Assembly: GCA_022014175.1 (NCBI GenBank)
Contig: JAKLLR010000010.1
Coordinates: 1 to 35,247, forward strand
From: Gammaproteobacteria bacterium
GTDB lineage: Bacteria > Pseudomonadota > Gammaproteobacteria > Immundisolibacterales > JAKLLR01
Length of the DNA stretch: 35,247 nt
Direction of reading: 5' to 3'
The notes below the pieces were generated by a model that saw only the letters and a list, made by a program, of their open reading frames with translations, ran no database searches and was not told where the DNA came from. The first letter of the stretch is position 1. Each line of letters starts with the position of its first letter. Of the stretch, positions 13,582 through 31,177 are shown one piece after another. A program made the position numbers and the translations under genes.

Positions 13582-15216
13582 TCAGGAGAGGCTCCGGTGG
13601 GCCAGGGCGATAATGCTGATGCCCGCGCTGATCAGTAGCAACTGCCGCAGGGTCTCTCCTAGCCCCATTCGCTTGTGCAGATTGGGAATCAGATCGGCAA
13701 CCGCGACGTAGATAAAACTGGCTGCGGCCAGCGCCATTAGATAGGGCAGAACGCCCCGCACTTCGTTGAAGGCGTAATAGGCGAGCAGTCCACCCGCGAC
13801 CGTGGTGAGGCTCACCAACAGGTTCAATACCAGTGCCCGCATACGGCTGAAGCCACTGTGCAGCAGGATGGTGAAATCCCCGATCTCCTGAGGAATTTCA
13901 TGGGCGGTTACCGCGATGGTGGTTAGTATTCCAAGTCGAATGTCGGTTAAAAAGGCGCTGCCGATCAGCACGCCGTCGAGAAAGTTGTGGGTGCTGTCCC
14001 CGAGCAGAATCAGTGCGCCCGAGGCGGAGTGAGAGGGCCTTATGCTGGCCTCGTCGGGGTTGTGGGCCTCACAGCTTTCGGTGTGGCAGTGGCGCCAGAG
14101 CACCAGCTTCTCCAGCAGAAAAAACAGCAGGATGCCCCCCAGCAGGGTTGCGGTGATCTGCATCGGTTCCACCAACGGCTGCTCCAGGGCATGGGGCAGT
14201 AGCCCGAGAAATGCGGCACCCAGCAGTGCGCCGATGGCGAAACTGAGCAGGGAGGGCAGTAGCCGGGTTCTTATGGGCTCCGGCACCAGCAGGATGCCGC
14301 CCGCCGCAGTGGCGCTGAGCAGCCCTCCAAACAGGGTGGCGGAGATAATCCAGAACAGGGGGGACATGATGGCGTTGTCAGCGGTCTCGGCAGTGATCGG
14401 GGCGCGCATTGTACGTGACAATGGTGTCACCGCCGGCTTCTCCGGCACGGGGTAGGTTTGCAGTCGGGCCCGCCAGCCCGATAGCCAGCGGGACTCCTGT
14501 CGTTTTGCCGGGGCCAGCGCCACCCGTTGACTGAGCAGCTGGTCCGCCGCAGCCGCAAACGTGCGGGCGCTGGCTTGGTCGGGTTCTCCAGGCCTGGCCA
14601 GTAGCACCTGCAACACTCCCCAGCCCTGGCCCTGATAGCGCTCCTCCGGGTTGATCCCTTCGCCTTTGAAGTTCGTATAGTCGACCAGGGCGTAGAGGCC
14701 GTCCGGCTCTGCAGTCAGGACCTTAAGGCGTTGTGCCACCGTGGCTTGCTGGTGCGGCGGTGCGGCGGCGATGATTTTTGGCCTGGCAGCCTCAAAGCGC
14801 TGGGCAATAAAACGGGCCTGTAGAGCGACTGTGGAGGCCAGCCAGTCCCTCAGCTCGGTCAGCTTTGGGCCACTCATGTCGGCTTCAAAATTTGCACGAT
14901 CTACCCAGGGGCAGGGCTGGTCTGGATTCTCAGCTAACCAGGTCGGGGGCTGTGAGCCCTGTTCGATGGCAAAGCGCAGCCAGTCCGGAAAGCTTTCAGA
15001 AAATGGCCCACTCTGGTTTTCCGGGTACCAGATGAAGTGACCGATGCCGAGGGAGGCAAACTGTTCCCCCTCGTTCCAGTGGGTGAGCTGGTCAACCCGG
15101 CCGTGGGCTTCGTTCTGCCAGATCTTCTGACCCAGGGCCAGAGCGGTGGCTTCGTCAATGGCTGCGTTGAGTGACCCGGTAAACAGGATCAGGAAAAGCA
15201 GCAGCCAGCGGTTCAT
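13582..15216 (-). CDS. Fusion: N-terminal secreted lysozyme-like domain of uncharacterised family plus C-terminal ZIP-family metal transporter
   Basis: Continuous 544-codon ORF: signal peptide, then IWQNEAHG...ASLGIGHFIWYPENQSGPFSESFP...YALVDYTNFKGEGINPEERYQGQGWGVLQVLL, then ZIP domain from about codon 284 with GDSTHNFLDGVLIG and TAHEIPQEIGDFTIL. Confidence 0.85.
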   Translation of the reverse strand: MNRWLLLFLILFTGSLNAAIDEATALALGQKIWQNEAHGRVDQLTHWNEGEQFASLGIGHFIWYPENQSGPFSESFPDWLRFAIEQGSQPPTWLAENPDQPCPWVDRANFEADMSGPKLTELRDWLASTVALQARFIAQRFEAARPKIIAAAPPHQQATVAQRLKVLTAEPDGLYALVDYTNFKGEGINPEERYQGQGWGVLQVLLARPGEPDQASARTFAAAADQLLSQRVALAPAKRQESRWLSGWRARLQTYPVPEKPAVTPLSRTMRAPITAETADNAIMSPLFWIISATLFGGLLSATAAGGILLVPEPIRTRLLPSLLSFAIGALLGAAFLGLLPHALEQPLVEPMQITATLLGGILLFFLLEKLVLWRHCHTESCEAHNPDEASIRPSHSASGALILLGDSTHNFLDGVLIGSAFLTDIRLGILTTIAVTAHEIPQEIGDFTILLHSGFSRMRALVLNLLVSLTTVAGGLLAYYAFNEVRGVLPYLMALAAASFIYVAVADLIPNLHKRMGLGETLRQLLLISAGISIIALAHRSLS

Positions 15217-16088
15217 GGCGACACAGGAGGCAGCGGAAGTAAACGCTCACTGGCTCTAAATCCGGCAACAAACAGAGCCAGGACCAACAGCATGGTACTG
15301 CCGTAGATGGTGGGTACCACGGCCATGGTGGCGTTGTTCAACAGTGCAGGGCTGAGCGCGACGGTGCCGCCGAGCAGGGCATTCTGGGCACCGACCTCAA
15401 TGCCTAGGGTCAGCACCTGTTTGCGCTGCAACCGGGCGAGCAGGCCACCGGTTACGCCAATAGCCAGGGTGATCAGGCTCAGGGCCAGGGTCACCACTCC
15501 CGCCTGGGCCAGGTAGGTGCTCAGGCGGCCCTGCTCCTTGCTCCAGATCAGATAGATCATCAGCGGCAGGAAGAGCCAACCCAGAAACCGCAGCACCGGC
15601 TCGACTCGGCTCGCAAAGCCGGGCATCACCGCCCGAATCCCCATGCCGATGGCGATGGGCAGGGCGGTGATCAGCATGATCCGCTGGGCGGTCTGCAGCA
15701 GGGGCAGCTCAACTGAGCTGCTCTGCCCCATGAAATAGGTGAGTGAGCCGTTCAGCAACAGGGGCATGGTGATGACGGTGGCCAGACTGGAGATACAGGT
15801 CAGGGTGACCGAGAGGGCCACCTCTCCCCGGGCCAGATGGGTGATCAGATTGGAGAGAATGCCGCCTGGGCAGACTGCCAGGATCATCACCCCCATTGCA
15901 ATTTCCGGCCTCAGGGGGAGGCTTGCCGCCAGTAGAAAGGCGCAGAGGGGTAGCAGCAGGATTTGACCCGTCAAGCCCACCGCCGCTGCCTTGGGGTAGA
16001 GGGCAACCCGTTTAAAATCCGCTGGTGCCAGGGTCAGTCCCATGCCAAGCATGAGCACAAAAAGAAAAACCGGTAGTGCGGAACTCAT
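15213..16088 (-). CDS. Bile acid:sodium symporter (BASS) family protein
   Basis: FLFVLMLGMGLTLAPADFKRV, CPGGILSNLITHLARGEVALSVTLT, VGAQNALLGGTVALSPALL; 4-bp overlap with the downstream fusion gene. Confidence 0.88.
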   Translation of the reverse strand: MSSALPVFLFVLMLGMGLTLAPADFKRVALYPKAAAVGLTGQILLLPLCAFLLAASLPLRPEIAMGVMILAVCPGGILSNLITHLARGEVALSVTLTCISSLATVITMPLLLNGSLTYFMGQSSSVELPLLQTAQRIMLITALPIAIGMGIRAVMPGFASRVEPVLRFLGWLFLPLMIYLIWSKEQGRLSTYLAQAGVVTLALSLITLAIGVTGGLLARLQRKQVLTLGIEVGAQNALLGGTVALSPALLNNATMAVVPTIYGSTMLLVLALFVAGFRASERLLPLPPVSP

Positions 16089-17281: not shown

Positions 17282-18301
17282 ATGACGATCACTGTTGGCA
17301 CCACAATTACACAGTTTATTATTGAACGGCAACGGGCATTGCCGGAGGCGACCGGCGAATTAACCTCGGTGCTGAATGATGTGGTGATCGCCTGCAAGGG
17401 GATTGCTAACGCGATTTCCCATGGTGGCCTGGCGGGTGTGCTGGGGAGTGCCGGCACCGATAATGTGCAGGGTGAGGGTCAGAAGAAACTGGATGTGTTG
17501 TCCAACGATATCTTTCTCAAAGCCAATGAGTGGGCGGGCCACGTCGCCGGACTGGCTTCGGAGGAGATGGAGGATGTGGTGCCCCTGCCGAATGGGGTGA
17601 GCCGGGGTAAATATCTGCTGCTATTCGATCCTCTGGATGGCTCCTCCAATATTGATGTGAACGTCTCGGTGGGTACAATTTTCTCCATTCTGCGCTCTCC
17701 GGAGGGTGTGGATCTGCCCCGGGCCGAGCATTTTTTGCAACCCGGTACCGCTCAAGTCTGCGCGGGTTACGTGATTTACGGCCCCGCCACCATGCTGGTG
17801 CTGACCACCGGCGATGGTGTACACGGTTTTACCCTCAGTCCCGGCATCGGTGAATTTCTGCTGACCCATCCAGATATGCGGATTCCTGAAGAGACCACCG
17901 AGTTCGCAATTAACGCCTCCAACATGCGCTTCTGGGAGCTGCCGATGCGGCGCTACATTGATGAGTGTCTCGCCGGCAGCGACGGCCCCCGGGGCAAGAA
18001 CTTCAATATGCGCTGGGTCGCATCGATGGTGGCGGACGTACACAGAATTCTGTGTCGTGGCGGCATCTTCACCTATCCCCTGGACAGTCGGGAGCCCTCA
18101 AAACCCGGTAAGTTGCGGTTGATGTATGAGGTGAATCCCATGTCATTTATCGTCGAACAGGCGGGGGGCGTCAGCTCCACAGGGCGCCAGCGCTGTATGG
18201 AGATCACGCCGGAGGGGCTGCACCAGCGGGTGCCGGTGGTGCTGGGGTCGAAGTCTGAGGTCGAGCGGGTGGTGGGTTATTACCGGGATGCCGCTGATTA
18301 G
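17282..18301 (+). CDS. fbp: Class 1 fructose-1,6-bisphosphatase
   Basis: [77 protein letters not shown]. Confidence 0.97.
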
Positions 18302-18846
18302 GGTTTTTCCCTTGTTAAGAAACGCTCGTGAATAAAGACCGCGATAGCTGGCGGGTCATTCAGATCCAGCAGCGGCAGATCAGTTTTCAGGTTTGGGTCG
18401 TCACTGGCGATGGCCACGATGTTCGCATCTGGCGGTAGTGCAGTCTGATTCAAGGCGCTGCGCCGCAGTTCGATTTTGGCCAGTGTGCTCTCCTTGAAAC
18501 CCTCCGCCAGCACCAGATCAAGACGCCCCAGGGCCAGTTCATCCACCAGATCAAGGGGGTCGGGCTCTGGCGGTCTCTCTCCGTCGGCTCCGGCCCGCTC
18601 CTCGAACCGGACCTGCCGCCAGGGAGAGGCCAGAAGCAGCTGCGCCGCCCCGGCCTGACGCAGTCGGTGGCTGTCCTTGCCGGGCCGGTCCACCTCAACC
18701 TCGTGATGGGTGTGTTTGACCACCCCTACCCGCAGTCCCCAACCACTGAACTGAGCCAGCAGCCCTTCAATCAGGGTGGTTTTGCCAGTGCCGCTGGGGG
18801 CCACCAGTGCAACTATCGGTGGCCGGGTCCAGGGTGTTTCAGGCAA
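18298..18846 (-). CDS. mobB: Molybdopterin-guanine dinucleotide biosynthesis protein B
   Basis: [55 protein letters not shown]. Confidence 0.93.
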
Positions 18847-20791
18847 CCCGGTTGCGCCACCAACGCAGCAGCCCGAGGCCGAGGGCGCCGAGAATAATCA
18901 GCAGCGGTATCAGGGCGATATTGATGAACTTCAGGCGCGCTTCAAGCCGGTCTATGTCGCCCCGCAGATCTCGCTGCACATCTCTCAGCTGTTTGCGCAC
19001 CCTGACTTTCTCGTTGCGGAATCGCTCGATCTCTGCCGCCTGTTCAGGAGAGAGGAGACTCTCCTCTTCCGCGGTTTTCTGCTGCTCAAGCTCCAGTAAT
19101 TTGGCTTCGGTCTGGCGCAGCTGCTCCTGCAGCGTCTGTTCCGTCTCAAGGAAGCGGGATTCCGCATCCATGGCCAGCTGGTTGACCACGGTGAAAGGCC
19201 GGGCGAAGGTGCCGCGACTGCGGACGCTAATCAGGTCGCTGGAGCCGCTCAGGTGCTCCAGTGCGTTCAGCACGAACTTGCCGTTGTCCGCGTAGGGGAA
19301 AGCAATCCGCTCGCCATAGAAGTTCTGAATCTGGACCCAGAACTGGTTATGCAGAAGATCCGCGTCCGCCACTAGGGTGACATTGATCGGGCTCGCTGCT
19401 TCCGCCACGAAATTCGGGTCATCCTCGGTATCAATTCGCAGCACCAGAGGCGTCTCTTCTTCCGGCATTTGAGTATCTGCTTCGGACTGCTCTGCCTCGG
19501 GGTCTTTACGTATCGGCTTGCCGTCCGGGAAGGCGGTGGTGGCCGGGCCAGTCAGGCGGGCGGCCAGTATCTGCCGACCGCTGTCGGGCTGGTAACTGGT
19601 GAGTAACTGCTCCGGCGTCGGGTTGCTCTGGAGTAAATCTGTCTCCAGCAGCTGTACGGAGTCGCTGGACCAGATCAGAGGCGTCAGAGTGGCCTCCGCG
19701 CCATCCAGCAAGCGAATTGAGCCGACGGTCGCGGCGTTGATCTGAGCGAGTCGGCTGGTGAGAATATCGTCGGTTGCCAGATGGTCCGGCAGCAGCCGCA
19801 ACCAGATCAGGTAATCCGCGGTACCGCCGGCACCGGTGGAGACCCGCTGCGCGGCACCCCGGTCGGCGACAACTTTGCCTTCAACCAGTTCCACCCCCCA
19901 TTTCTCCAGCAGTGGTCCCAGGCTGCTGCTCTCTTTGGGCAGCGGAGGTTCGTTGGGACTAAAGGGGTCGCTGGGAATGACTTCACTGGTCGCAAAGGGG
20001 TCGAGAAACGCCAGCAGGTGTCCGCCCCGCAGGACGAACTGATCAATCGCATAGAGACTGGCATCATCCAGATATTTGGGGTGAACCAGCATCAATACGT
20101 CCACCTCCTCCGGAATTTCGGTGGCTTTGTAGTCGATGTCCTGCACCGTGAATAGCTGTTGCATCTGATCGTAGATGCCCCAGGGTGCTGGTGGCGGCTG
20201 ATTGGTAAAGGGGTTGGCGCGACCGCCGCCCTTCAGTGGCAGGCTCGACCAGAGTCCGATGACAATTTTCTCTGGCCCTGTGAGGCGATAGACCAGATTG
20301 GTCAGCTCGTACTCCAGGAACTCAGCGTTGTCCGGCTGAAAAAAGGGGATCACCTCCCTGGCGCGGCCCTCTGCGGATGCGACCAGGCCGAAGTAGGCCA
20401 CTTCACCATCCTGCAGTGGCGCGCCTTTGAGGCCACTGGCCACCGCTTCATCCTCCTCATCAGAGAAGGGCTCCGGATGGATGACTTCAAGCTGGATCTT
20501 GTCTCCAGCCACGGCGGAGTACTCCCGCAGCAGTTGATCAACCCGCTGGGCATAACTGCTCAGTCCCGGTAGTTCGTTTAGAACCTTGGAGTAGTAGAGC
20601 CGCAGAGTGACCGGTTTTTCCAGGGCGCGCAGAATGTTGCGGGAGCCGTCAGTCAGGGTGTAGAGCTGGTTGGCGGTGAGGTCGATCCGGGCGCTGCTGA
20701 ATAGCACCACTGCAAAAATATTGACTACAAACAGCAGGGCCAGAGCGAGCAGTAGACCGGAGCTGGAGAGCAGGGATTTTTTTAGTGCCAT
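18839..20791 (-). CDS. GldG-family ABC transporter auxiliary protein
   Basis: N-terminal TM, ARIDLTANQLYTLTDGSRNILRALEKPVTLRLYYSK, ABC_transp_aux-like body, C-terminal coiled coil plus TM. Confidence 0.88.
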   Translation of the reverse strand: MALKKSLLSSSGLLLALALLFVVNIFAVVLFSSARIDLTANQLYTLTDGSRNILRALEKPVTLRLYYSKVLNELPGLSSYAQRVDQLLREYSAVAGDKIQLEVIHPEPFSDEEDEAVASGLKGAPLQDGEVAYFGLVASAEGRAREVIPFFQPDNAEFLEYELTNLVYRLTGPEKIVIGLWSSLPLKGGGRANPFTNQPPPAPWGIYDQMQQLFTVQDIDYKATEIPEEVDVLMLVHPKYLDDASLYAIDQFVLRGGHLLAFLDPFATSEVIPSDPFSPNEPPLPKESSSLGPLLEKWGVELVEGKVVADRGAAQRVSTGAGGTADYLIWLRLLPDHLATDDILTSRLAQINAATVGSIRLLDGAEATLTPLIWSSDSVQLLETDLLQSNPTPEQLLTSYQPDSGRQILAARLTGPATTAFPDGKPIRKDPEAEQSEADTQMPEEETPLVLRIDTEDDPNFVAEAASPINVTLVADADLLHNQFWVQIQNFYGERIAFPYADNGKFVLNALEHLSGSSDLISVRSRGTFARPFTVVNQLAMDAESRFLETEQTLQEQLRQTEAKLLELEQQKTAEEESLLSPEQAAEIERFRNEKVRVRKQLRDVQRDLRGDIDRLEARLKFINIALIPLLIILGALGLGLLRWWRNRVA

Positions 20792-20796
20792 ATTGT

Positions 20797-21531
20797 TTAT
20801 CCTGCCTTTTTCAGTTCGACGACCACTGCGTTGGCGTAGAGCCAGAACAGAATCATAGAGAGGAAGAAGACCATATCCTTGATCTCGACCACGCCCCGGG
20901 TGATGGCATCAAAGTGGGTCAGGAAGCTGAACGACCGCAGCGTCTCCACCAACAGATCCGGCATCCAGCCTGTAAAAACCTCAAGGGTGCTGGGAAAACC
21001 GGTGATCAGGAGCAGAAAGCAGATCATCACACTCACCACAAAAGCGATGACCTGATTTTTGGTCACTGCGGAGATACAGGCGCCGATAGCCAGATAGCTG
21101 CCCGCCATCAATAGACTGCCGAGATAACCCGCTGCGATGACGCCGTGGTCCGGGTCGCCCAGATAACTCACGGTGATCCACATCGGGAAGGTCAGCGCCA
21201 CCGCCACCGCGGTAAAGAGCCAGGCCGCCAGAAACTTACCCACAACCGCCTGCCAGAGGGAGACAGGCAGCGTCATCAGCAGTTCGATGGTGCCACTTTT
21301 GCGCTCCTCGGCCCAGAGTCGCATCGCCACCGCCGGCATCAGGAACAGGTAGAGGAATGGATGGAACTCGAAAAAAGGTTGCAGACTGGCGTACCCGCTG
21401 TCGAAGAATCCGCCCAGATAGAACGTAAAAATTCCATTCAGGAACAGGAAGATAACAATAAACACATAGGCAACTGGGGTTAAAAAGTACCCGGCCAGCT
21501 CTCGTTTGATAATGATGCCAAGGGTGTTCAT
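20797..21531 (-). CDS. ABC transporter permease (ABC-2/GldF-like)
   Basis: Polytopic protein IIKRELAGYFLTPVAYVFIVIFLFLNG...RLWAEERKSGTIELLMTLPVS between ATPase and GldG-like genes. Confidence 0.9.
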   Translation of the reverse strand: MNTLGIIIKRELAGYFLTPVAYVFIVIFLFLNGIFTFYLGGFFDSGYASLQPFFEFHPFLYLFLMPAVAMRLWAEERKSGTIELLMTLPVSLWQAVVGKFLAAWLFTAVAVALTFPMWITVSYLGDPDHGVIAAGYLGSLLMAGSYLAIGACISAVTKNQVIAFVVSVMICFLLLITGFPSTLEVFTGWMPDLLVETLRSFSFLTHFDAITRGVVEIKDMVFFLSMILFWLYANAVVVELKKAG

Positions 21532-22472
21532 GAACGGGCTCCGGCAGTGTCGGTGAGATCCCTGAAGACGTCATCCAGCTTGCCCCCCTGCTGGTAGATC
21601 TGCTCCACCTGCCAGCCTTCGGTTGTGGCCAGCTGGGCCACGGCGCGAATAACGCTCTGACCGCCCTCGGGGAAGATCAGCAGTGTGCGGTTGTCCAGGG
21701 TCTGACAGCTATCGATCCAGTCCAGCTGGGGTAGCCGGGCCGCCGCCAGGGGTGCCTGCTCTGCGGATAACTGCAGTGATACCGCGTTGTGGTAGCGGGA
21801 GCGCGCCTCAAGCTCCTGCGGGGTACCGTCTGCTACCAGTTTGCCGTTGGCGATAATCAGGGCTCGGCTACAGACCGCCTCCACCTCTTCCAGGATGTGG
21901 GTCGAAATGACAATAGCCTTGTCGGATGCCATCTCCTGAATCAGGCTACGGACTTCCTGTTTTTGATTCGGGTCCAGGCCGTCGGTGGGTTCATCCAGAA
22001 TCAGGACTTGCGGGTCGTGCAGAATCGCCTGGGCCAGCCCGACCCGGCGCTTGAACCCTTTCGACAGGGTATCGATGCGCTGGTTTAACACGTCACCGAG
22101 CTGAATGCGGGAGACTACATCTGCGATCCGCTGGCGCTTTGTCTCGCCCCGCAGGCCGCGAATACCCGCGACAAAATCCAGTAGTGCTGCGGGGGTCATG
22201 TCTGCGTAGAGCGGCGCGCCTTCCGGCAGATAACCAATTTGGCGGCGGCTCTGGAGGGGTTTCTCGGTGATGGACTGGCCACCAATGCAGACGGTGCCCG
22301 AGGTGGGGGTGAGAAATCCGGTGACCATTTTCATGGTGGTGGACTTGCCTGCGCCATTGGGACCGAGGAACCCCAGCACTTCGCCTCGGTCGACCTGAAA
22401 AGTGAGGTCATCCACCACCTTCGACGCGCCAAAGCGTTTACACAGGTGTTGAATCTCGATCAGTGCGGTCAC
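21528..22472 (-). CDS. ABC transporter ATP-binding protein (GldA-like)
   Basis: GFLGPNGAGKSTTMKMVTGFLTPTSG, LSKGFKRRVGLAQAILHDPQVLILDEPTDGLDP. Confidence 0.93.
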   Translation of the reverse strand: MTALIEIQHLCKRFGASKVVDDLTFQVDRGEVLGFLGPNGAGKSTTMKMVTGFLTPTSGTVCIGGQSITEKPLQSRRQIGYLPEGAPLYADMTPAALLDFVAGIRGLRGETKRQRIADVVSRIQLGDVLNQRIDTLSKGFKRRVGLAQAILHDPQVLILDEPTDGLDPNQKQEVRSLIQEMASDKAIVISTHILEEVEAVCSRALIIANGKLVADGTPQELEARSRYHNAVSLQLSAEQAPLAAARLPQLDWIDSCQTLDNRTLLIFPEGGQSVIRAVAQLATTEGWQVEQIYQQGGKLDDVFRDLTDTAGARS

Positions 22473-24291: not shown

Positions 24292-24630
24292 TTATCGTCC
24301 TGGGTGCCGCTGCCGAACCTGGGCATGGCGTTCGCCTTTACGGTCGAGCCGATGATCGATACGATCACCTTTGCGGTCGAGGTGCTGGTCGATGCGGTCA
24401 CCCTTGCGGTCAAGCCGCTCCGCCAAACGCTGTTTGCCATTCGCCTCAGCTCGGGCGGATCGCTGATCCAGGCGGTGGTCGATGATGTCGCCGCGGCGGT
24501 CGAGTCGGCGGTCGATCTGGTCACCTATGCGATCAAGCCGGTCATCGACTTCCCGCGGATGAGATGCGGTTGCTACGGCGCTGATGGTGGCCAAGAGGAT
24601 AACCAGTGCTATGTTAGATCCTGTTTTCAT
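24292..24630 (-). CDS. Small secreted hendecad-repeat protein (LDRKGDRIDxx repeats)
   Basis: ATG 24630 with SD aggag; signal peptide MKTGSNIALVILLATISAVATA; repeats LDRKGDRIDQH/LDRKGDRIDHR/LDRKGER. Confidence 0.75.
   Translation of the reverse strand: MKTGSNIALVILLATISAVATASHPREVDDRLDRIGDQIDRRLDRRGDIIDHRLDQRSARAEANGKQRLAERLDRKGDRIDQHLDRKGDRIDHRLDRKGERHAQVRQRHPGR
24336..24401 (-). repeat. 33-bp tandem units encoding 11-residue repeats
   Basis: ctttacggtcgagccgatgatcgatacgatcac / ctttgcggtcgaggtgctggtcgatgcggtcac, then a partial third unit ccttgcggtcaagcc. Confidence 0.8.
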
Positions 24631-24723
24631 CTTTTTCTCCTGCAACATTTGGGGTTTACCCCAGCAACAACGGGTGAGATCGGTTTTGGTTGACAGCTCA
24701 GGGAAAATTTTCAGGCGTGGGTT

Positions 24724-25548
24724 ATGACCCAGGGTCTGCCCAGACTCGCCGCGGTGCAAATGACCTCCGGTCCGGAGGTCTCGGCCAATCTGGCCGTGGC
24801 GGCGGAGCTGATTGGCATCGCCGCAGGGCAGGGAGCGAAGCTGGTGGTGCTGCCGGAGAACTTCGCCTTTTTTGGTGCCCGGGAGCGAGACAAACTGGCG
24901 GTGGCGGAGACAGAGGGCGTTGGTCCGATTCAGACATTTCTGGCGGATCAGGCGGGGCATCACGGGATCTGGCTGGTTGGTGGCACGCTGCCGATGGCCG
25001 CCAGGGATGGCCGGATTCGTGCGGCGAGTCTGCTGTTCGGGCCGGACGGTCAGCAAACGGCCCGCTACGACAAGATCCACCTGTTTGATGTAGCCCTCGA
25101 TGGGGGCGAGCAGTACCGGGAGTCCCGCCACATCGAGCCCGGTGACGAGGTGGTTGTGGCGGACACGGCGCTGGGGCTGGGGCTGGTCGGTATGGCGGTC
25201 TGTTACGACCTGCGGTTTCCAGAGCTGTTTCGACAGATGGTGGCGAGGGGCGCCCGGATTATGGTACTGCCGTCCGCTTTTACCGCCGCCAGCGGAGCTG
25301 CTCACTGGCACTTGCTGTTGCGGGCCAGAGCGGTTGAAAACCTCTGTTATGTAGTCGCTCCTGACCAGGTCGGTCGCCACGCCAATGGCCGGGACACCTA
25401 CGGCCACTCCCTGATCGTTGATCCCTGGGGTGCTGTGCTGGCCGAGTGCAGTGGCGGCCCGGGTATTGTCACGGCCGATTTCGATTCAGACCAGCTAGCC
25501 GCCCGCCGCAGACGGTTTCCCGCGCTGACCCATCGCCGTCTCCCATGA
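24724..25548 (+). CDS. Carbon-nitrogen hydrolase (nitrilase superfamily, Nit1-like)
   Basis: VVLPENFAFFG (Glu), YDKIHLFDV (Lys), AVCYDLRFPELFRQMV (Cys) catalytic triad. Confidence 0.93.
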   Translation: MTQGLPRLAAVQMTSGPEVSANLAVAAELIGIAAGQGAKLVVLPENFAFFGARERDKLAVAETEGVGPIQTFLADQAGHHGIWLVGGTLPMAARDGRIRAASLLFGPDGQQTARYDKIHLFDVALDGGEQYRESRHIEPGDEVVVADTALGLGLVGMAVCYDLRFPELFRQMVARGARIMVLPSAFTAASGAAHWHLLLRARAVENLCYVVAPDQVGRHANGRDTYGHSLIVDPWGAVLAECSGGPGIVTADFDSDQLAARRRRFPALTHRRLP

Positions 25549-26255: not shown

Positions 26256-27092
26256 TCAGTGTTGACAGCCTGGACACCAGTAGCTGGCCCGCTGGCCCAG
26301 AACGGCCTGCCGGATGGTGCCATCACAGCGGTTACAGGGCCGGTCCGTCCGACCATAAACCTGCAATACCTGCTGGAAGTAACCGGGGCGGCCATCGCTG
26401 GAGCGGAAATCCCGCAGGGTGGTGCCCCCGGCGGCAATGGCCTGTTGTAGTACCCGTCGTGCCGCTGCCGCCAGCAGAATATAGCGTGCCAGACTGACCC
26501 GCCCAGCCGCTCGTTTGGGGTGTATGCCCGCCAGGTGCAGCGCCTCACTGGCATAGATATTGCCGACCCCGACCACCATTTTATGGTCCATTAAAAAGGG
26601 TTTGATTGCGGCGGTTCGGCCTCGGGCGTGGTGGTGCAGATGGGTACCTAACACGTCACTGCTGAGCTCCAGTGGTTCCGGGCCCAGATGGCTGAGCAGT
26701 GGGTGGGTGGCCGGATCCAGGCTCCAGAGTGCGGCACCAAACCGTCTGGGATCGTTCAGCCGCAGACAATCGCCGTTGGCAAGCACGAGATCCAGATGGT
26801 CATGTTTCCGCAGCGGCGTCTCCACTGGCAGGTAGAAGAGCGCGCCGGACATGCCTAGATGCAGAATCAGGCTGCCCCGCTCTTTGCTGCCTTCACCCCC
26901 GGTTTCCAGCAGCAGATATTTACCCCGGCGACGGACGCTCTGGATGGTCTGCCCGGCCAGTGTCTGATCCAGAGTCGGCGGAACCGGCCAGCGTAATCGG
27001 GGCTCCCGAACCTCGACTCCGGTGATCCGCTGACCCTCCACCAGGGGCGCGATGGCCCGCCGGGTGGTCTCGACCTCTGGCAACTCCGGCAT
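26256..27092 (-). CDS. mutM: Formamidopyrimidine-DNA glycosylase
   Basis: MPELPEVETTRRAIAP N-terminus, GVGNIYASEALHLAGIHP, C-terminal zinc finger CNRCDGTIRQAVLGQRASYWCPGCQ. Confidence 0.97.
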   Translation of the reverse strand: MPELPEVETTRRAIAPLVEGQRITGVEVREPRLRWPVPPTLDQTLAGQTIQSVRRRGKYLLLETGGEGSKERGSLILHLGMSGALFYLPVETPLRKHDHLDLVLANGDCLRLNDPRRFGAALWSLDPATHPLLSHLGPEPLELSSDVLGTHLHHHARGRTAAIKPFLMDHKMVVGVGNIYASEALHLAGIHPKRAAGRVSLARYILLAAAARRVLQQAIAAGGTTLRDFRSSDGRPGYFQQVLQVYGRTDRPCNRCDGTIRQAVLGQRASYWCPGCQH

Positions 27093-27958
27093 CAGTCGAT
27101 GGTGGTCGTCAGACCGGGGTAGAGCAGGCGCCGACCGAGGGCGAGGGAGAGGCGATAACTGACTGCGGGCTCCAGCCGATGCAGCCAGAAGCCGGTGTCG
27201 TCACCCTCGACCCTGAACTCGATCTGGTGGTCGCGCCCAGACTGCCGGTAGTGGATCTGCACGGGTGCGCCGAGCCATTCAGCCAGTGGTACAAGCCGCT
27301 CGGCTCTGGCGGTCAGCCAGAGTGCTGTAGTGGCCTTCGGAATCTCTGCGCCTAAGGGTTGTGGGTCGGCAATGCGCCAGCTCCCGTCGCTGGGGGTGAT
27401 GGTCTGCGACGGCAGCTCCAGCTTTAGAATCTCTACCCCATCGGGCAACAGGCGATGCTCCACCAGTGTGGGCCAGCCCCCCGCAATCTGATAGAGATAA
27501 CGGTCGTCAGTCTGTACCACCAGTTCGCCGATGCCCATATAGCGCCGCTGATTCAGGGGGTTGGTGCTACCGAAAACGAATTCGGTCTCGTTCATGAAGA
27601 GCCGATAGCGCGGCTCGGCCAGACCGTATTCCGCGAGGGTGTGTGGGCGGGCGGCCAAGCTCATGTGGATAGGTGCCTCAATCAGCGCCAGCAGCTGCTC
27701 CAGTCGGGTGTTGTCAGCTGGCAGGGTAACCGGTTTCCGCAGCTGCCAGCCACTCTCAAGCCGCTCAAACAGGGCGTCGGGCTGACCCACGATCTGCAAG
27801 CCAATCCAGTTGACCTGCTCCGCCTGAAGTGGAGTGATCTTCCGCAGCGGTGTCGGGGCTTCACGCTCCGGCGGGTGACCGGGTTTGGCCAGAAAACCGA
27901 TGGCAATGGCCGCAGAAATCAGCAGGATGTAGTTGATTAACCAGCGTTTGCGGTTCAT
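27092..27958 (-). CDS. DUF4340 domain-containing protein
   Basis: N-terminal TM, EQVNWIGLQ...FERLESGWQLRKPVTLPADNTRLEQLLALIEAP; ATGA overlap with the upstream GldG-like gene. Start trimmed to ATG 27958. Confidence 0.88.
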   Translation of the reverse strand: MNRKRWLINYILLISAAIAIGFLAKPGHPPEREAPTPLRKITPLQAEQVNWIGLQIVGQPDALFERLESGWQLRKPVTLPADNTRLEQLLALIEAPIHMSLAARPHTLAEYGLAEPRYRLFMNETEFVFGSTNPLNQRRYMGIGELVVQTDDRYLYQIAGGWPTLVEHRLLPDGVEILKLELPSQTITPSDGSWRIADPQPLGAEIPKATTALWLTARAERLVPLAEWLGAPVQIHYRQSGRDHQIEFRVEGDDTGFWLHRLEPAVSYRLSLALGRRLLYPGLTTTID

Positions 27959-29313
27959 GCGGACTCTCTTCTGCGCCACCAGAGTCGAGCGGCAATGATC
28001 AGGCAAATCATCGGCAGCAGGAGCAGAAAACCAAAGGCAATCACCATACCTTCACGCTGGGACAGTCTGAGTTGCGCGTCTGCAGCCTGATACGGGGGAA
28101 TATCCAGAAACTGCTCGTCAATGGCCAGCCAGTTCAACAGATTCAGCCCCAGTTGCAGATTACCGCCATTGCCCAGATAACGGTTGGAGAGGAAGTCACC
28201 ATCGCAGATCACCACTGCCCGTTGGGGACCCTGCTCCAGCGCGACTCCGAGCAAGTGGGGGCCAGGTTGATCCTGGCCCGGGTTGAATTGTGGGGGTTGA
28301 TCGGGCGGGTGGTCTGCGGGGTTGATATCCACCCAGCTGTGGCGGGCAGTGGTAATCAGTGGGGTCTGTTGCCAGGTTTGGTTCTGCGGGGTTAGCTGTT
28401 GAGCCGGCGTGATCGAGCAGGCTTCAGGGAACACCGTGGTCAGTTGCATTGCTGCTGTGATCGGGTGGTTGGCGTACTCCCCTGGGCGGGCGACTACGAA
28501 GTTCTCCGGGGCGTTGATCAATTTGGCATTGGGATCGATGATTGGATCACCTGAGAGTTGAAGCCCCAGTTCAGTGGCGAGGAAGCCGAGGCTGCTGTGA
28601 CCCGGATCGGCCAGCCAGAGCAGCTTGCCGCCGCCGCGCATGAATGCTTCGATGGCTGCCTGGTCTTTGGGCAGCAGCGCCACCGAGGGGTGACTGATTA
28701 GCAAAATGCCCTCTTGTGGCAGCGGGTCACCGGCTGCTGGAAGCACGGTTTGGAGACGGAACTCCTGAGCTTTCAAGGCTGCGGCGAATTCGGACAGATC
28801 ATGGTTGGCCTGACGAGCCGGGCTGCGTTCACCATGGCCGGAGAGAAACAGCAGCAAGGGTGGTTCGCTGCGCTGTAGCTGCAGCATCGCCTGGGTGATC
28901 GTCTGCTCATTCAGATTGCGGAGCTGGCGTGACCGCCTCTGATACTCCAGCAGCAGTTCGCCATTGGCCTGAATTCCCAATTTCCGGACCTGCCCCGGGT
29001 GCCTGTTGGGGTCGATAAACTCAAAACTAATCTTCTGGGAGTGCTCGAGATAGGGGCGCAGCAGTGCGCTGATCCGTTTGCGCAGGGTTTTGTCGTCGCT
29101 GGCGAAGGCGGTGATGGTGAGCGGTGCCTGTAGTTTTTGGATTACTGTGCGGCTGGCGGGCGACAGGGTGTGGCGGCCGTCGGCGGTGAGATCGAGGCGT
29201 ACCGGGTAGCGCTCCCCGAGCCAGGCCAGCAGGCCAGCGGTGAGGATCAGCCCGAGCAGAAAAACAGCGAGTTGAAAGCGGTGGTGGTAACGGTTTTCCG
29301 GACAGAGTTTCAC
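27955..29313 (-). CDS. GldG-family ABC transporter auxiliary protein (second copy)
   Basis: ERYPVRLDLTADGRHTLSPASRTVIQKLQAPLTITAFASDD; LFLSGHGERSP; C-terminal TM. GTG start at 29313 overlaps the permease stop (GTGA); the longer ORF to 30201 runs through the permease gene. Confidence 0.87.
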   Translation of the reverse strand: MKLCPENRYHHRFQLAVFLLGLILTAGLLAWLGERYPVRLDLTADGRHTLSPASRTVIQKLQAPLTITAFASDDKTLRKRISALLRPYLEHSQKISFEFIDPNRHPGQVRKLGIQANGELLLEYQRRSRQLRNLNEQTITQAMLQLQRSEPPLLLFLSGHGERSPARQANHDLSEFAAALKAQEFRLQTVLPAAGDPLPQEGILLISHPSVALLPKDQAAIEAFMRGGGKLLWLADPGHSSLGFLATELGLQLSGDPIIDPNAKLINAPENFVVARPGEYANHPITAAMQLTTVFPEACSITPAQQLTPQNQTWQQTPLITTARHSWVDINPADHPPDQPPQFNPGQDQPGPHLLGVALEQGPQRAVVICDGDFLSNRYLGNGGNLQLGLNLLNWLAIDEQFLDIPPYQAADAQLRLSQREGMVIAFGFLLLLPMICLIIAARLWWRRRESA

Positions 29314-30059
29314 AGCGGCCGCCGCTCCAGATCCAGCCGCAGTACTGCCAGCGCCAGTGCAGTGCAGGTCAGCAGCAGGTGGTAGAGCAGATCCCCGGAG
29401 TTCAGCAGGCCCTGGGTGAATGGGGTCAGGTGTCCAGGCAGCGCCAGGTAGCTGAGAATCCCCCCCGCTGTGGCGCTGCCATCCGCAGGCTGAATAACCC
29501 ATAGCAGCAGTATGGTCGCGAAGGTGCTCATGGCGGCCAGCAGGGGTGTGCGGGTGACCGTTGAGAAAAACAGGCCGATGGCACTGACGCTGGCACAGAG
29601 CAGCAGCAGACCGATCACTCCGGTGAGCCACTGACCCCAGTCCAGCTGGGTCCCGATCGCTAAACTGGCGGTGGGGGCGATTGCAAGGGTGACTGGCGCT
29701 GTGAGAAAGAGTAGGCAGCCCAGGTATTTGCCCAAAATAATCTCGCTGCTTGAGATCGGTGCGCTGAGGAGCAGCCGGATGGTGCCGGTGCGGTACTCCT
29801 CGCTGATCAGCGGCATGGTCAGCAGCGGGATCGCGGTCAGCAACAGGGCTGCGGCACTGCTGAAGAGCGGCGCCGCGATTAAATCGGTCACTCCCGGGGC
29901 GCCTACCTGATTGGCCAGTTTTGGTGCGACAGTTTGATACCACTCCAGTTGCAGCAGAAACAGATAGGCCAGCACAAATTGCAGCAGAGCCAGTAGTACC
30001 CAGTTTCCCGGAGCGCCCAGGGCGCGTGTCAGCTCCCGTTGTGCCAGAGCGCGGATCAA
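29310..30059 (-). CDS. ABC transporter permease (ABC-2/GldF-like, second copy)
   Basis: Polytopic; RALAQRELTRALGAPGNWVLLALLQFVLAYLFLLQLEW, LISEEYRTGTIRLLLSAPISSSEIILGKYLG. Confidence 0.9.
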   Translation of the reverse strand: MIRALAQRELTRALGAPGNWVLLALLQFVLAYLFLLQLEWYQTVAPKLANQVGAPGVTDLIAAPLFSSAAALLLTAIPLLTMPLISEEYRTGTIRLLLSAPISSSEIILGKYLGCLLFLTAPVTLAIAPTASLAIGTQLDWGQWLTGVIGLLLLCASVSAIGLFFSTVTRTPLLAAMSTFATILLLWVIQPADGSATAGGILSYLALPGHLTPFTQGLLNSGDLLYHLLLTCTALALAVLRLDLERRPL

Positions 30060-31003
30060 GCCGTGGTGCCGGGCGTGGTTGGTGGCTGGGTGATCTCCAT
30101 AAATCGCCGCTCCAGCAGGCGTCCGGCGGGGCTGATCTCCCGTATTTGCCAGCCCTGGATGAGTGCTGCGGTGCTGATCTCAGCGATAGCCTGGTCAGCA
30201 CTTTTGGCGTGGATCAGGACGCTCTCTGCGCCAATGCTTTCGACCCGATTCGTAGAACTCAGGGCGTTGAGCTCGGCGACTGTCGGGGGGTTGTTAAACC
30301 GCACCAGCAGAGTCTCTCCAAACTGGGGTTGGGTACTCCCCCGGGTCGGGCTCTCCTGATGGAGCTGACCCTTGTGCAGAATCAGGATGCGGTGACAGAG
30401 CGCCTCAGCCTCGTTCAGAATATGGGTGGAGAGCAGCAGAGCGCGGGTGGTGCTGAGCTGCCGGATGAGGGTGTGGATCTGTTCGATCTGGAGTGGATCG
30501 AGGGCGCTGGTGGGTTCGTCCAGAATCACCACCTGGGGGTCGTGGATAATGGCCTGGGCAATACCGGTACGCTGCCTGAAACCCTTTGAAAGGTGGCTGA
30601 TAAGTGTTCCCCCCACGGCTTCCAGATTGCACTCGGCTTTGACCTTGGCCAGCTGAGCGCGGGCCTGGCCGCCTTTTACGCCGTGCAGGCGGGCGCAGTA
30701 GAGCAGGTACTGATCCACCGTCATGTCGAGATAGAGCGGCGGGTTATCCGGTAGATAACCGAGACACCGTTTTGCCTTGATGGGGGATTCAGCCAGATCA
30801 TGGTCGGCAATCTTGATGCGGCCGCGGGTGGGTGCCAGCGTACCGCAAAGCATAGCCATGGTGGTGCTTTTGCCAGCCCCGTTGGGACCGAGCAGGCCGA
30901 CAATCTCGCCCCGCCGGAGTTCGAGGTTGATCGGTCCGAGCCGATATCCTCCGGGGTAGCAGCGCTCAACGGCGTCGGCCTGCAGCAAGGTATCGGCTAT
31001 CAT
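30056..31003 (-). CDS. ABC transporter ATP-binding protein (GldA-like, second copy)
   Basis: GLLGPNGAGKSTTMAMLCGTLAPTRG, LSKGFRQRTGIAQAIIHDPQVVILDEPTSALDP. Start trimmed to ATG 31003. Confidence 0.92.
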   Translation of the reverse strand: MIADTLLQADAVERCYPGGYRLGPINLELRRGEIVGLLGPNGAGKSTTMAMLCGTLAPTRGRIKIADHDLAESPIKAKRCLGYLPDNPPLYLDMTVDQYLLYCARLHGVKGGQARAQLAKVKAECNLEAVGGTLISHLSKGFRQRTGIAQAIIHDPQVVILDEPTSALDPLQIEQIHTLIRQLSTTRALLLSTHILNEAEALCHRILILHKGQLHQESPTRGSTQPQFGETLLVRFNNPPTVAELNALSSTNRVESIGAESVLIHAKSADQAIAEISTAALIQGWQIREISPAGRLLERRFMEITQPPTTPGTTA

Positions 31004-31177
31004 TAGCACATTATTGGCCGAATTCCCTGTTTTGCAAACCGGATTTGGTGGCTGAGCTTGTGTGAATTCTAAAGGGCCCCCAGCTATTGTCACGCACCAG
31101 TCATCAGGCCCTGCTTGGCTGGTTGATTCGGTTGCGTATACTGCGCTCTACCAATCCAAGGATGGAGGACTTCCCGT

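Follow-up and report, generated by a model that had tools for sequence, protein, structure and literature searches.

A candidate lysozyme-superfamily domain family, found in one gammaproteobacterial genome in frame with a LIV-1-type ZIP transporter

We describe a single open reading frame (ORF) from a gammaproteobacterial metagenome-assembled genome (MAG) that encodes a signal peptide, a periplasmic domain, a linker and a ZIP metal transporter. Modelled folds and conserved residues suggest that the N-terminal domain probably represents a new family of the lysozyme superfamily, neither GH24 nor GH46. Our favored reading, which we consider reasonably probable, is that the ORF specifies one exported polypeptide in which a working ZIP importer anchors a periplasmic lysozyme-superfamily glycosidase to the inner membrane and each module acts independently. 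The domain family itself is a new and replicated result, sturdier than the fusion, which is an unreplicated curiosity of one MAG; as a stand-alone family it lies beyond what a first-pass annotation made from the sequence alone could tell.

The fusion ORF and its surroundings

The window, by which we mean the whole stretch of 35,247 nucleotides that was analysed (contig JAKLLR010000010.1), carries the uninterrupted 544-codon ORF that the first-pass annotation had reported. It is encoded by the minus strand, and over the same interval the first frame of the plus strand is full of stops. The motifs quoted in that annotation are likewise present (QNEAHG at residue 34, ASLGIGHF within residues 46 to 61, HNFLDG at 410 and HEIPQE at 439). 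Since each half of the ORF is a member of a conserved protein family, neither can be put down to a chance reading frame. The host MAG comprises 2.2 Mb in 173 contigs, is 92.6% complete, and contains no match to the fusion protein other than the locus itself. The main features are as follows.

13582..15216, minus strand: entire fusion ORF (544 codons and a stop)
15160..15216, minus strand: predicted signal peptide, residues 1-19 (MNRWLLLFLILFTGSLNAA), from sequence and hydropathy; many relatives also have a signal peptide
14443..15156, minus strand: N-terminal periplasmic domain (N-domain), residues 21-258, of an undescribed, probably lysozyme-superfamily, family
14368..14442, minus strand: linker, residues 259-283; N-domain relatives end soon past the TY motif and ZIP relatives begin at M284
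13582..14367, minus strand: ZIP metal transporter, residues 284-544, LIV-1 type by its motifs (PF02535; BbZIP structures)
15213..16088, minus strand: upstream SBF-family (bile acid:sodium symporter-like) gene, whose stop overlaps the fusion start as ATGA (15213-15216)
14407..14423, no strand: perfect inverted repeat CATTGT-N5-ACAATG with 6-bp arms, within the linker

The fusion starts at the ATG at 15216 and ends 22 bases from a convergent ftsX. Because of the ATGA overlap of stop and start, the SBF gene and the fusion ORF are probably translationally coupled. An ftsY-ftsE-ftsX block and coaD, mutM, radC and coaBC genes, read from ORF translations, lie nearby, a set of genes in keeping with a gammaproteobacterial host. 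The inverted repeat was considered as a metal-regulator site and set aside: it is perfect only here, and one-mismatch copies across the genome occur at chance level, about as often as in a reversed control, with no regulon seen.

Fold and candidate active site of the N-terminal domain

Searches of Pfam, NCBIfam and PHROGs placed residues 21-258 in no family convincingly, the PDB gave no match by sequence, and the comparison with solved chains, ZIP4 ectodomains included, yielded no credible sequence match. PHROGs returned isolated single-member matches only, viral contigs held no confirmed relative and phage records no credible match, and on these grounds we rejected a phage endolysin origin; carriage on plasmids, for which we found no match, was dropped as well.

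AlphaFold gave confident models, of the window domain with a pLDDT of 95.3 and of a member 38% identical to it with a pLDDT of 96.3. The fold search that the first-pass annotation had proposed as a check placed GH46 chitosanases at the top for both models, at modest scores: TM-scores against the PDB were just 0.39-0.50, no E-value fell below 0.001, and those of the best GH46 matches were above 0.01. For the window-domain model, GH46 chitosanases filled Foldseek ranks 1-8 (probability 0.63-1.00, best E 0.019, TM-score 0.39-0.47). For the divergent member rank 1 was a GH46 chitosanase (probability 0.90, E 0.074) in a list that was otherwise noise-like, with a comparable TM-score only in a type VI effector-immunity complex at rank 31. 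In the viral library, the higher-ranked named matches include lysozyme-family, GH108 and chitosanase proteins. The matches of these models in the two libraries are weak as numbers, yet they agree.

Families GH19, GH22, GH23, GH24 and GH46 share a helix bearing the catalytic Glu and a beta-hairpin, and the hairpin has the highest conservation and carries a water-positioning Ser/Thr (PMC2976769). In our model, helix 2-17 ends at E16, which is E36 of the ORF, and strands 34-36 and 41-43 form a hairpin (34-43); the most conserved window of 10 columns is SLGIGHFIWY in both alignments. The candidate active site is composed as follows.

15109..15111, minus strand: Glu36, which closes the first long helix and is proposed as general acid; invariant, in all 65 aligned rows
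15064..15066, minus strand: Glu51, proposed as general base and kept in 63 of 65 rows
15025..15054, minus strand: SLGIGHFIWY, residues 55-64, predicted beta-hairpin and the most conserved 10-residue stretch, the hallmark set out in PMC2976769

Ser55, the proposed water-positioning residue, is likewise kept in 63 of 65 rows, and, as far as the sequences tell, two diverged paralogues (L123 and L129) account for the departures at both E51 and S55. These two keep the helix Glu, have lost the equivalents of E51 and S55, and by these substitutions are possibly inactive copies; another paralogue, L120, shares a genome with L129.

On account of the GH46 fold matches, the helix Glu and the conserved hairpin, we provisionally place the modelled domain in the lysozyme superfamily, probably as a family of its own. 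The first-pass annotation had likened it to GH24 lysozymes, and this likeness is supported at the level of the superfamily and fails at the level of membership: no PF00959 match was obtained in 66 members, and the profile-profile alignment covered 19 columns. With hhalign, probabilities were 7.8% for GH24, 6.0% for GH108 and 0.3% for GH46; the first two ranked above 18 control families and GH46 did not, its profile being built on four PDB sequences only. The class yielded no PF01374 members with which to enlarge that profile, and GH46 membership by sequence was discarded on that probability and for want of a PF01374 match to the N-domain. The GH24 alignment lies on the active-site stretch and that of GH108 on the GWxNR tail.

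The GH46 chitosanases (Streptomyces N174 CsnN174, 1CHK; 4ILY; 1QGI), the best solved-structure match for the two models, resemble the N-domain in being mostly helical proteins of about 240 residues with a general-acid Glu at a helix end and an acidic residue 4-5 positions ahead of the hairpin Ser/Thr. They differ from it in lacking detectable sequence homology, in TM-scores of about 0.5 or below, and in a hairpin reading GYTGGIIGF, 23 residues from Glu to Ser, whereas the N-domain has SLGIGHFIWY at 19. The T4 lysozyme family, GH24, shares the E...[ST]-x-G-[IY]-G-H active-site pattern and was the best, though weak, of the 21 profiles tested, exactly on that stretch. In contrast, it shows no overall alignment, has 15 residues between Glu and Ser/Thr, four fewer than the N-domain, and is about 150 rather than about 240 residues long. 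That a secreted family of the lysozyme superfamily can diverge and use two Glu residues has a precedent in DslA, the deacetyl-specific lysozyme of Bdellovibrio, which is nearer GH23 than GH46 (PMC7511926); it gave no sequence match to the N-domain in the PDB search.

Distribution and gene context of the domain family

A genome scan for relatives of the N-domain found 205 encoding stretches, the best 80 of which were fetched as loci. These 80 come mostly from Verrucomicrobiota, and also from Marinobacter, Psychromonas, Thiotrichaceae, Zetaproteobacteria, Chlamydiota and others, and single-domain secreted proteins or lipoproteins of this family are common in these groups, Verrucomicrobiota, Chlamydiota and Zeta- and Gammaproteobacteria among them. 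The domain occurs in 20 of 369 sampled genomes of the class and in 50 of 399 from the phylum. Most of the phylum's carriers belong to a single family (f208), in whose sampled genomes the domain is frequent and which is probably zetaproteobacterial, judged from named loci. Of 112 domain frames, 21 have a lipobox by a first-pass pattern and many others a signal peptide on visual inspection, which argues that the family is extracytoplasmic. In the tree, the window row sits on a long, unplaced branch (0.85). Tandem duplicates with lipobox signal peptides were seen in Parabeggiatoa and Thiothrix (L070 and L103).

In two Chlamydiota proteins (L081:3426-5732 and L106:3270-5717) the N-domain stands C-terminal to a GH3 domain (E about 1e-80) with the KHFPGHG motif of the N-acetylglucosaminidase type. 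They are thus like the fusion in joining the same family to another domain and unlike it in the partner and in the order of the parts; the two N-domains do not cluster in the tree, where the forks are open. In one Verrucomicrobiota clade, which we count as a single case, an L,D-transpeptidase gene lies directly downstream of the N-domain gene in 22 loci (PF03734, E 2e-18 for the one gene scanned) and a GH3 gene falls inside the 5-kb flank in 19. The GH3 fusion and the neighbouring L,D-transpeptidase point to peptidoglycan. The family spans several phyla, its candidate catalytic residues are invariant, and no family library that we searched has a name for it; should its members prove to be enzymes, they would form an overlooked family of peptidoglycan (or other aminosugar) hydrolases.

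The first-pass annotation had tied the domain to metal uptake, a link that the other copies do not bear out: among the best 80 of 205 loci, no ZIP gene of the fusion's type is fused to the domain or lies within 5 kb of it (or up to the locus end), and no SBF relative stands near any other N-domain copy in the loci examined. A functional link by neighbourhood was therefore rejected for both.

The ZIP half

The assignment of the C-terminal half to the ZIP transporters, made in the first-pass annotation, is upheld by a PF02535 match held by residues 284-544 (E 2e-36 and 2e-37 in two scans), by similarity to BbZIP chains and structures (E 6e-6) and by its metal motifs; a simple hydropathy-type scan finds seven hydrophobic segments from residue 282 onward.

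13972..14001, minus strand: TM4 metal motif GDSTHNFLDG, residues 406-415, with LIV-1 residues per PMC13192868
13876..13902, minus strand: TM5 metal motif HEIPQEIGD, residues 439-447, against the signature HExxHExxD

The LIV-1-type metal residues are D407, H410, D414, H439, E440, E444 and D447, and they suggest a LIV-1-type transporter. As in human ZIP4 and prokaryotic LIV-1 members, TM4 reads D-x2-H-N-x2-D and TM5 HExx-x-ExxD; the TM5 motif fits the LIV-1 signature except for Gln in place of the second His. By motif, D407, E444 and D447 would correspond to ZIP4 D504, E541 and D544, the LIV-1-specific residues (PMC13192868). In relatives from the order and class, the ZIP gene occurs without the N-domain, typically encodes about 250-315 amino acids, mostly at 45-60% identity, and begins at the equivalent of M284. 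The internal ATG at 14367, noted in the first-pass annotation as a possible start of a stand-alone ZIP protein, is exactly this M284.

Evidence for and against the fusion

A second fusion of N-domain and ZIP was found neither in the best 80 of 205 loci nor in any of the 68 other domain-bearing genomes, that is, the N-domain carriers in the class and phylum samples, so the search for further instances that the first-pass annotation had suggested came back empty. The largest N-domain frames outside the window, 361 amino acids in the class scan and 417 in the phylum scan, are too short to hold both halves. Where fetched loci have longer frames, these represent either GH3 fusions or overhang on the upstream side; L053, L068 and L083 were rejected as fusions on this ground, their long frames looking like open-frame overhang 5' of the domain's own start. 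The genomes nearest to the host with which the fusion was compared were seven of the same order. Within the literature library searched, no paper contained the motif or combined the terms of the fusion. We know of no earlier N-terminal enzyme-like domain on a prokaryotic ZIP. The architecture that the first-pass annotation had thought undescribed does look so, as a single unreplicated case in one MAG. If the fusion is real, it would be the first such domain on a prokaryotic ZIP known to us, in parallel to the ectodomains of eukaryotic LIV-1 proteins, in one genome.

The simplest reading of the join is a private stop-loss fusion, and the short linker of about 25-28 codons is probably former intergenic DNA. 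Its third-position GC of 0.75 is like that of the rest of the ORF. A reading that we regard as somewhat unlikely, and which deserves the most attention among the alternatives, is that two separate genes are present and no fusion protein is made, the stop having been lost by consensus error or the ZIP being translated from M284 (or M270). It is in keeping with the solitary occurrence of each half in every relative examined, with the ancestral ZIP start codon kept at M284, with the end of the relatives' N-domains shortly past the TY motif, and with several linker codons that are one base from a stop. Against it, the frame is intact through the conserved W-GW-R-TY tail into the ZIP with no sign of a frameshift, and neither a promoter nor a terminator was matched in the linker. 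Nor can a ribosome-binding site be seen ahead of M284 or M270, a weak point because Shine-Dalgarno sequences are also scarce before the window's other genes. As to relatives with two separate genes, which the first-pass annotation had held would refute the fusion, each half stands alone in the relatives examined, and none of them carries both together, either as a fusion or within 5 kb of the N-domain (best 80 of 205 loci).

Other explanations concern the N-domain itself. That its fold and function are of another kind, with no relation to glycan cleavage and a GIGH motif that arose by coincidence, would suit the low TM-scores and the lack of a strong sequence match to any GH family; we hold it to be unlikely, since both models have GH46 enzymes as their best match in the PDB, the helix Glu and conserved hairpin are arranged as in the superfamily, and the GH3 fusion and the neighbouring L,D-transpeptidase speak for glycan cleavage. 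It is more doubtful still that the domain is a non-catalytic peptidoglycan- or metal-binding ectodomain regulating the ZIP, an idea to which we give very little weight. The LIV-1-type metal residues of the ZIP half are in its favor, and so is the eukaryotic LIV-1 precedent, ZIP4 for example, in which a large N-terminal extracellular domain is required for full transport (PMC4915132). However, the invariant acidic residues are kept, the N-domain occurs without a ZIP in all other loci examined, and it has no sequence relation to the ZIP4 ectodomains.

Proposed mechanism

The ORF, both protein families and their conservation are observed directly, and the ORF has kept both the candidate catalytic residues and the metal motifs of the ZIP intact. 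Under the single-polypeptide reading that we prefer, the join most likely arose when a gene for a secreted enzyme lost its stop ahead of a ZIP gene, and the fusion would be translated as a single chain. The signal peptide would send residues 20-258 to the periplasm, where, going by the models, they may adopt a lysozyme-superfamily fold and act as a glycosidase on glycan strands, most likely those of peptidoglycan, with Glu36 as candidate general acid, Glu51 as candidate base and Ser55 positioning the water. About 25 presumably flexible residues would lead into an eight-helix LIV-1-type ZIP importing divalent metal, and the N-terminus of the ZIP is expected to face the periplasm, so that the enzyme would be held at the inner membrane. 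Each of the two modules probably works on its own. A bolder proposal, that a new and widespread lysozyme-superfamily GH family acting on the peptidoglycan of Gram-negative and PVC bacteria is here coupled to a zinc-type importer so as to coordinate wall opening with metal entry, strikes us as quite improbable as a whole; such coordination is possible, the join itself being all that points to it.

Other features of the window

At 24292-25407 on the minus strand, the C-terminal part of an ORF (from MKTGSNIALVILLATISAVATA) resembles a small secreted protein with repeated RLDRxGDxIDxRLD units. At 17282-17332, genes for phosphofructokinase (minus strand) and fructose-1,6-bisphosphatase (plus strand) are divergent with overlapping predicted starts, and a single promoter region may serve both of these opposing glycolytic enzymes. 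A stretch of 13 kb holds two similar ABC-2 transporter sets (18839-22472 and 27092-31093), with auxiliary proteins that by eye are GldG-like and DUF4340-like.
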